Below, in pieces: positions 37,809-43,038 of a stretch of DNA of 64,000 nucleotides. A program made the translations under genes and the position numbers. The stretch comes from Arenicellales bacterium (GTDB taxonomy: Bacteria; Pseudomonadota; Gammaproteobacteria; Arenicellales; JAHEKD01), in contig JANQSD010000011.1 in assembly GCA_028284225.1 (NCBI GenBank), positions 124,001 through 188,000 of the forward strand. Direction: 5' to 3'. The first letter of the stretch is position 1, and every line of letters begins with the position of its first letter. The notes under the pieces are model-generated. The model was not told the DNA's origin, ran no database searches, and saw nothing but the letters and a program-made list of their open reading frames with translations.

Positions 37809-37823
37809 CTGAACATCACTAGA

Positions 37824-37860
37824 AACTGGGTGTAGTGTTATACTACGCCCAGTTTTTTTT
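37824..37860 (+). terminator. clpB terminator
   Basis: Stem AACTGGG-T-GTAGT pairing with ACTAC-G-CCCAGTT (13 bp counting a T-G pair), 5-nt loop GTTAT, followed by eight T residues. Confidence 0.92.
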
Positions 37861-37875
37861 GTGCGAGTATCTTTT

Positions 37876-38115
37876 ATCCTAGATTCCTCAGTTGACCACT
37901 TTAAAGTATAGTTAAGTTAATGAATTCTAATGTAAAACAACCTGTTTATGCGTTCACCTTGTGGGTGAGTGCGCTAGCGGTCTTAATGCGGGTTAAAATC
38001 CACTGCAGCTACGTTATGGATTTTGCAAGTAGACCAACTACTTGCTGCAATCCATGCCTTGCTTCAGCGCATTTTCTCTGCGCCTTAAAACCGCTCCAAC
38101 TGAGGAGTCTAGGAT
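37876..38115 (-). mobile_element. MITE-like element, copy A (240 bp)
   Basis: Ends form imperfect terminal inverted repeats: ATCCTAGATTCCTCAGTTGA at 37876-37895 and, read on the other strand, ATCCTAGACTCCTCAGTTGG at the right end. A second copy of the same length lies inverted at 42799-43038, about three-quarters identical by eye along the whole length. Inside is a strong stem (ATGGATT/AATCCAT and GCAAGTAG/CTACTTGC, 38016-38055). There is no reading frame. TTA flanks both ends and may be a target duplication. Strand is arbitrary. Confidence 0.8.
38102..38107 (+). promoter_or_regulatory. Ribosome binding site formed by the MITE end
   Basis: GAGGAG lies 9 nt before the ATG at 38117 and within the right terminal repeat of the MITE-like element. 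It is the only good Shine-Dalgarno match for this gene and decides the start over the upstream in-frame ATG at 38042. Confidence 0.7.
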
Positions 38116-38116
38116 T

Positions 38117-39247
38117 ATGAAAGCAATGATTCTGGCTGCAGGAGAAGGCACAAGAATGCGGCCGCTGACTTATGAACTTCCCAAGCCTATGATCCCGATT
38201 CTGGGCAAGCCGGTGATGGAATACCTGATTGAGGAACTGGCCAAGCATGGCTTTACGCAAATTATGGTCAATGTGAGCCATCTGCCTATGCGTATTGAGC
38301 ATTACTTTGGTGACGGCAGGCGCTGGGGTGTTGATATCGGTTATTCGTTTGAAGGCCACATAGAAGAAAAAGAAATTATCTCCCAACCCATTGGTTCAGC
38401 TGGCGGGGTTAAAAAAATTCAGCAATTCAGCCGGTTCTTTGATGATACATTTTTAGTGATTTGCGGTGATGCCTTGATCGATCTGGATTTAACCGCTGCA
38501 ATGCGCAAACATTGGCAGTCTGGTGCCAAGGCCAGTATTGTGGTGAAAGAAGTAACGCATGATCAAGTGAGTAATTATGGTGTTGTTGTCTGTGATAATA
38601 ATGGAAAAATCACTTCCTTTCAGGAAAAACCCAGTGAACAAGAAGCCAAATCGAACTTAGTCAATACTGGGATTTATATTTTTGAGCCGGAAATCCTGGA
38701 TTTGATCCCGGACAATAAAGAATATGATTTCGGCAGTGAATTATTCCCTGATATTTTGGCTAATAGGCTGCCGTTTTATGCCATTAACCAGCCCTTTTCA
38801 TGGATTGATATTGGCCGCTTGAATGATTATTGGGAGGCGACTCAGCAGATGATGAGTGGCGAGCTGAAAGATGTGGCGATGCCCGGCAAGCAAGTGCGGC
38901 CAGGCATTTGGACAGGCATGAATGTCAATGTCGACTGGGATGATGTTCGCATCGAAGGACCAATCTATATCGGCGCCAGTTCCAAAATTGAAGCGGGTTG
39001 TGAAATCATAGGTCCAACCTGGATCGGTCACGGTTGTTATCTGCAAAGCGGTGCCCGTGTTACCCGAAGTATTTTGTTCGAACACACCTATGTGGGCTCG
39101 CGTGGCCAACTGTATGAGGCTGTGGTTTACGGACAGCGCTGTGCTGATAAAGACGGCAATCGCATCAAGGATGGCGATAAAGAATTGGATTGGGTAACAG
39201 ACGCGCGCGAGTCACATTATTACAAGAATAATGTGATTAATATTTAG
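38117..39247 (+). CDS. Sugar-nucleotide (mannose-1-phosphate guanylyltransferase-like) nucleotidyltransferase
   Basis: 376 residues: an N-terminal NTP-transferase domain ('MILAAGEGTRMRPLTYELPKPM', 'GGVKKIQQF', 'CGDALIDLDL') and a C-terminal left-handed beta-helix hexapeptide region ('EGPIYIGASSKIEAGCEIIG', 'ILFEHTYVG'). This architecture is that of GDP-mannose or glucose-1-phosphate pyrophosphorylase-like proteins; the nucleotide and sugar cannot be fixed from sequence. A link to the phosphohexomutase at 22626 (hexose 1-phosphate supply) is possible. The start codon sits directly against a mobile element that provides its ribosome binding site and probably part of its upstream control. Confidence 0.85.
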   Translation: MKAMILAAGEGTRMRPLTYELPKPMIPILGKPVMEYLIEELAKHGFTQIMVNVSHLPMRIEHYFGDGRRWGVDIGYSFEGHIEEKEIISQPIGSAGGVKKIQQFSRFFDDTFLVICGDALIDLDLTAAMRKHWQSGAKASIVVKEVTHDQVSNYGVVVCDNNGKITSFQEKPSEQEAKSNLVNTGIYIFEPEILDLIPDNKEYDFGSELFPDILANRLPFYAINQPFSWIDIGRLNDYWEATQQMMSGELKDVAMPGKQVRPGIWTGMNVNVDWDDVRIEGPIYIGASSKIEAGCEIIGPTWIGHGCYLQSGARVTRSILFEHTYVGSRGQLYEAVVYGQRCADKDGNRIKDGDKELDWVTDARESHYYKNNVINI

Positions 39248-42798: not shown

Positions 42799-43038
42799 AT
42801 CCTAGAATCTTCAGTTGAACTGGATTTTAGGCGTGGGTAAAATCTGCTGATGCAAGGCATGGGTTGTAGTAAGTAGTTGTTCTACTTGCAAAACCCATAA
42901 CGCCGCAGCAGCGGATTTTAATCCGCATGAAAGCCGGTAGCGCGTTCACTGACAAGATGAATGCATGAACGGTATAACTTACATTTGAATTCATACGTTT
43001 AAATGTACTTCAAAGCGATCAACTGATGAATCTAGGAT
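42799..43038 (+). mobile_element. MITE-like element, copy B (240 bp)
   Basis: Inverted relative to copy A at 37876-38115 and of identical length. Terminal repeats ATCCTAGAATCTTCAGTTGA (left) and, from the other strand, ATCCTAGATTCATCAGTTGA (right). The central stem ATGGGTT/AACCCAT with GTAGTT...CTAC matches the stem of copy A. There is no reading frame. It separates tRNA-His from tRNA-Leu. Confidence 0.8.

Follow-up and report, generated by a model that had tools for sequence, protein, structure and literature searches.

The window analysed here (the whole 64,000-nucleotide stretch from an Arenicellales genome) contains clpB and, downstream of it, a gene for a sugar-1-phosphate nucleotidyltransferase (38117–39247, + strand) with an NTP_transferase domain (PF00483, E 5e-58) and a hexapeptide repeat (PF00132). 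Homologues of this enzyme begin at 38117 (MKAMILAAG), and an orthologue with 88% identity has the same start methionine. Between the two genes lie the intrinsic terminator of clpB and a 236-bp MITE-like element (37878–38113, + strand); about 18 copies of it can be recognised in this genome. The terminator, which an earlier note on this DNA had placed just before the element, is real: a hairpin with a 17-bp stem and a 3-nt loop is followed by eight Ts (37821–37859, + strand; −25.3 kcal/mol, z −7.4). The element is bounded by 17-bp terminal inverted repeats, CCTAGATTCCTCAGTTG on the left (37878–37894, + strand) and CAACTGAGGAGTCTAGG on the right (38097–38113, + strand), and by a 5-bp target-site duplication. 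The left duplicate (37873–37877, + strand) reads TTTAT, as does the empty site of a congener (locus L017), and the right one (38114–38118, + strand) reads ATTAT, with one substitution. The order is therefore the clpB stop, the terminator hairpin, 13 bases, TTTAT, the element (CCTAG...CTAGG) and ATTATG. The right duplicate holds the A and the T of the nucleotidyltransferase start codon, and the insertion point falls exactly at that codon, between TTTAT and G.

Drawn as a pair of 19-nt repeats (37876–37894 and 38097–38115, complementary at 18 of 19 positions), the right repeat does end one base before the ATG, as had been described; the outer AT on either side is however part of the target duplication and lies outside the element proper, whose true end is the CTAGG at 38113. 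The pair is not a chance match, since the same element is found about 18 times in the genome. A motif resembling a Shine-Dalgarno (SD) sequence, GAGGAG, is present inside the right terminal repeat (38102–38107, + strand), at the reported 9 nt upstream of the ATG at 38117–38119. The supposed upstream ATG at 38042 is in fact a TTG, the in-frame upstream ATG being at 38054. A second copy in the window (42801–43036, − strand, locus L063) lies upstream of a tRNA-like stretch and trigger factor.

Copies in the genome and empty sites in a congener

Searching the whole genome with a stretch of the element gave 23 matches, and the terminal repeat was found at 45 places, compared with 5 for a reversed control pattern. 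Full copies measure 233–238 bp and shorter ones 185, 185, 163, 134 and 57 bp, with target duplications of 5 bp that are mainly TTAAA or ATAAT. The copies are intergenic save one (locus L050, G000:C1:150589-154733, at about 1962–2147), a 185-bp copy that interrupts an M48 peptidase gene within its first codons and splits the likely signal peptide (MLIFW / LKRVDIIYKYLVIAVISLTAF).

The congener used for comparison is one genome of the same genus (G001, 75% complete), and no member of the family was detected anywhere in this draft. Its clpB is directly followed by the nucleotidyltransferase gene, with CGCGTTTATGAAAGCG at the start, and the empty site reads ...GTTTATGAAAG, with TTTAT at the start codon. 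All five orthologous junctions that were found (nucleotidyltransferase, cysS, hisS, GDPD and Rieske protein) are empty in the congener, and the pentamer duplicated at cysS and GDPD is single there. At cysS (loci L049 and L134), the target ATAAT is contained in TTGCTATAAT, a near-perfect extended −10 sequence 7 nt from the ATG of the congener. Its closeness to the ATG suggests that cysS of the congener may be leaderless, in which case the insertion would have duplicated part of its promoter.

Adjacency to start codons

The earlier observation of an element end at a start codon is confirmed, and it belongs to a wider pattern; the check proposed in the earlier note, whether further genomic copies end at start codons too, came out in its favour. 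In this genome, 13 of the 18 copies have a gene start 0–18 nt beyond their right end, against a background of about 5% of non-coding target-like pentamers situated that near to starts, a rate obtained by running a simple gene caller, which misses some genes, on 464 kb. The 18-nt cut-off was picked after the data had been seen, while the survey of other genomes described below used 24 nt and its own control. The binomial probability of 13 out of 17 is 2e-14 at a 5% background and 3e-8 at 15%, and doubling or tripling the background rate leaves the result unchanged. The start-abutting genes, which were checked and are real, code for the nucleotidyltransferase, HisZ (hisZ), a 97-codon frame with no Pfam match, a Rieske protein, CysS (cysS), a fatty-acid hydroxylase, an EamA transporter, a putative TauE-like frame (248 codons), HisS (hisS), PrfC (prfC), PheA (pheA), an acyl-CoA-ligase-like protein and a macro-domain protein. 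A 60-bp remnant from which the right arm is missing is placed likewise before mutM, and its frame terminates over the start of that gene. Within this genome the right end is clearly preferred (13 right against 2 left ends at starts, P 0.007), the left-end cases being GDPD, which is the one clear example, and one putative case. Most of the copies that do not lie near a start are decayed (Fisher P 0.002, hand counts). At hisS, the left duplicate contains the TAA of the upstream gene and the right duplicate the TAA that closes the frame of the element, which leaves the distance from stop to start unchanged by the insertion.

The open frame of the element

The copy at the nucleotidyltransferase gene carries an open frame of 66 codons (37920–38120, + strand), whose TGA stop (38118–38120) overlaps the ATG of the gene (ATGA). 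An upstream frame that stops at or near the downstream start is the arrangement of a coupling leader, and at the other start-abutting copies of this genome the stop of the frame is found −8 to +14 nt from the start. The frame is open in 13 of the 14 alignable copies and has been retained through three internal deletions (51, 51 and 102 bp). Placing the same number of substitutions at random would leave 6.7 of 14 copies open (P < 2e-4), and redrawing only the substituted base 9.6 of 14 (P 0.011), both P values being approximate since the copies share descent. In the variable left part of the element, the ATG(A) of the frame is the only invariant trinucleotide position. Of the full-length copies of this genome, only that at 42801–43036 is interrupted by an in-frame stop, and it has no adjacent gene start; a 1-nt frameshift is present at the right end of another copy (L048). 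Stop codons close two reading frames at the right end of the family: TGA and TAG, both in one frame, lie within CAACTGAGGATTCTAGG of the terminal repeat, and a TAA or TGA in another is supplied by the WTRAW duplication. The right end thus works as a stop cassette which overlaps the SD motif.

A conserved small protein was considered and rejected, as the substitution rates at the three codon positions are equal (0.207, 0.214 and 0.204, with no bias) and pN/pS is that of the other frames; another subfamily is likewise devoid of a protein-like pattern. The peptide has no credible match in Pfam or NCBIfam and no match among plasmids and phages, a profile search of genome contigs with the peptide alignment gave none either, and the element has no match above threshold in Rfam.

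Translation signal, RNA structure and promoter

The end of the element holds the sole good SD sequence upstream of the ATG, as was first noted. The congener, which has no element, carries AGGGA instead and no GAGGAG at its ATG; since its site is empty and its SD is a different one, GAGGAG was brought by the element. An element-free relative with the GAGGAG-ATG arrangement, which the earlier note had listed as counter-evidence, was thus looked for in the congener and not seen. The claim that the element sets the translation signal thus stands for the primary sequence, but not for a transcript that spans the element, in which GAGGAG forms the 3′ arm of the terminal stem, with all of its bases paired. 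Its unpaired probability is 0.001 in a transcript coming from upstream and about 0.39 once the left arm is removed. The terminal stem is very stable (−87.2 kcal/mol, z −7.3) and closes beside the ATG, and the left end of the element bears the same SD-like motif as the right one.

The stability of the stem and the exposure of the motif upon removal of the left arm would both fit a structured leader, in which RNase III cuts the terminal stem and frees the 3′ arm so that its GAGGAG serves as SD, the open frame being unused. RNase III cleavage at the terminal repeats of Correia elements has been reviewed (PMC10969869). We nevertheless regard this explanation as rather unlikely, because it gives no reason for the open frame and its invariant ATG, and because in the mutM remnant, which has no right arm to be released, the frame nonetheless terminates over the start. 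That the stem closes beside the ATG also brings to mind the hairpins of phage T4 genes, which are known to bring an SD sequence to the start. Here the folded element would loop out and leave an old, weak GAG (37865–37867), located about 8 nt from the base of the stem, suitably spaced from the ATG for the native SD to remain in use. This bridging seems very improbable, given that the native GAG is weak, that the conservation of the frame is left unexplained, and that it fails for copies whose left flank has no SD.

The element had also been taken as the probable promoter context of the gene, which is not borne out by the sequence. There is no consensus −35/−10 pair in the region of the nucleotidyltransferase copy, and no rightward sigma70-like site was found that scores above shuffles and is common among the copies. 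The box shared with the congener, an extended −10-like sequence (TGnTATACT), lies upstream of the element (TGTTATACT at 37836–37844, + strand; TGGTATACT in the congener). Transcription that begins inside the element and reads into the gene does have precedent in Correia elements and other MITEs (PMC10969869), and some copies are situated between divergent genes, where an internal or upstream promoter is needed; in view of the absence of a shared rightward site and of the position of the box, it appears improbable. Transcription of the nucleotidyltransferase gene most likely comes from an older promoter upstream of the element. The TGTTATACT box is a candidate for this native promoter and is nested in the clpB terminator hairpin. 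A transcript that begins at this box would be without the terminator's 5′ arm and could read through, so that a promoter nested in a terminator in this way would let its own transcript escape termination.

The family in other genomes

The terminal repeat was found in 21 of 369 genomes of the class, with controls near zero. Named carriers among the Beta- and Gammaproteobacteria include Rhodoferax, Sulfuricella, Thiobacillus, Nitrosomonas, Gallionellales, Thiotrichaceae, Thiodiazotropha and Formivibrio. Most of the complete named copies (42 of 57) measure 220–239 bp. In the survey, which counts independent named genomes, an ATG start lies at most 24 nt from the right end in 17 of 46 cases, against 13% in the control (P 4e-5), and at most 24 nt from the left end in 10 of 46 (P 0.07). 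Since the left end has the same SD-like motif and is also found at starts, the orientation bias is weak outside the present genome (17 versus 10). A forward frame that reaches the right end and spans 45 codons or more is present in 23 of 31 representatives sharing under 80% identity, compared with 6.7 of 31 for shuffles (maximum 13 in 200 shuffles) and 3 of 31 for the reverse strand; GAGG occurs in the right ends of 28 of the 31.

Further start-abutting cases include folA, ispH, znuB, trkH, flgL, hypE and methionine aminopeptidase, gene names with no Pfam call resting on the N-terminal sequence and general background. At znuB, where the stop of the element frame recreates the ATGA overlap, two species of one genus have elements with 3 differences in 236 positions (98.7% identity), while the znuB gene itself differs by 3.5, 1.6 and 17.4% at codon positions 1, 2 and 3. 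The element is far less diverged than the third codon positions, which indicates a strong constraint on the element itself. A near-complete genome, G725, has copies exactly at ATGAT starts (L212, L215, L218, L224 and L234), for example those of mreD-like, folA and ispH genes; the left end abuts the start in 4 of its 5 start-abutting copies, the reverse of what is seen in the present genome. Two other genomes (G176 and G238) contain MITEs with quite different terminal repeats (L076, L077, L081, L084 and L087) which have an inner hairpin in common with this element (GCGTTAT.GATTTT ... TGCAAT.CATGCCTTGC), so that the core looks like a module placed under different ends.

The duplications raise the question of whether target choice could account for the adjacency. 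They are exact in 32 of the 57 complete named copies and nearly all WTNAW, a pattern of which several sequences include or border on an ATG or TAA, and ATGAT, ATTAT and ATAAT targets put the end of an element 0–3 nt from an ATG. If the transposase prefers WTNAW and only non-coding insertions survive, adjacency would be a by-product of target choice and gene avoidance, the SD-like sequence of the terminal repeat a coincidence, and the host genes tolerant. That left ends abut starts too is in line with this. Target-like sites near starts amount however to about 5% in this genome and 13% by the loose test of the survey, well under what is observed, and the kept-open frame, its invariant ATG, the right-end bias in this genome and the conservation at znuB are left unexplained. 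We therefore consider target choice unlikely to be the full account.

Discussion

For the element at the nucleotidyltransferase start, we see an even chance that it is a mobile translation leader which, judging from its sequence, would supply both an SD motif and a coupling frame. Ribosomes would translate the frame of the element and thereby open the long terminal hairpin, terminate at the stop beside the host start codon, and the same ribosomes or fresh 30S subunits would restart on the host gene, aided by the GAGGA/CTAGG motif. Such a leader would restore the start where the insertion has cut a gene off from its own SD or from upstream coupling, so that these copies would be retained. Extended to the whole class, the proposal is more tentative and in our judgement falls somewhat short of an even chance: the MITE family would act as a mobile translation leader inserting at start codons or at stop/start junctions, which replaces the lost ribosome-binding site and coupling by its own terminal SD and by a frame that needs openness but no particular peptide, and host genes, some of them essential, would depend on it. 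It speaks against the leader that the terminal repeat by itself accounts for part of the stops near the right end, and that the frame lacks a clear SD in this genome, which is the weak link of this reading. WTNAW targets such as ATGAT contain an ATG, so target choice contributes to start adjacency. Both pure target choice and the release of the right arm by RNase III are live rivals to the leader.

If the leader model is true, small elements survive in compact operons by repairing the translation start which they break. Ribosome coupling could then be tested cleanly on genomes, as the family combines numerous insertions at known genes, the empty sites of relatives, and a frame constrained only to be open. 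The annotation of start codons and catalogues of small proteins would be affected as well, since the frames resemble orphan genes of about 65 codons. Known bacterial MITEs have been reported to alter transcription, RNA stability or protein sequence. A review from 2024 covers their promoters, IHF sites, RNase III, sRNAs and insertion (PMC10969869); a role in ribosome binding or in translation initiation at start codons is not mentioned in it and was not found in the papers searched, and the literature search on MITEs with translational coupling gave no relevant paper.

Comparison with known systems

The element is of a known kind, a MITE, and is new by its behaviour. It is short (236 bp), has 17-bp terminal inverted repeats and a 5-bp target duplication, contains no transposase gene and only a 66-codon frame matching no family, and occurs in about 18 dispersed copies with empty sites in a congener; the family is non-autonomous and widespread, mostly 233–238 bp long, with WTNAW target duplications. 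The ends of ISEcp1, of the IS1380 family, begin with CCTAGATTC... and this insertion sequence makes a 5-bp duplication, both of which are features shared with the present element. An IS1380 origin is nevertheless not supported: the PF13701 transposase is absent from this genome, and in the 10 of 22 carrier genomes that have it, it is not flanked by ends of the element. No autonomous partner was found beside these ends in this genome, PF13701 being the sole family tested.

Correia elements of Neisseria are alike in lying directly upstream of genes and in forming hairpins from their terminal repeats in transcripts, but they act through promoters, IHF and RNase III, whereas no rightward promoter was found in the element described here; a promoter element of the Correia type was rejected for want of an outward promoter. 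Rickettsia palindromic elements are also small and palindromic and stay translatable. They have a conserved peptide and are fused in frame within genes, whereas the present frame is intergenic, ends at the start of the next gene and encodes an unconserved peptide; this type was rejected as well, as there is no conservation by codon position and the copies are intergenic save the one in the M48 peptidase gene. The ERIC and RU sequences of enterobacteria, which are small, mobile and carry open frames too, are described as fusions within genes, with no role at start codons or ribosome sites reported in the same work (PMC2759123). The element also resembles bacterial MITEs in general (PMC10969869), which are short, have terminal inverted repeats and target-site duplications, contain no transposase gene, and occur in many dispersed copies with empty sites. 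Unlike them, this element strongly abuts start codons, carries an SD motif in its terminal repeat and keeps a coupling frame open.
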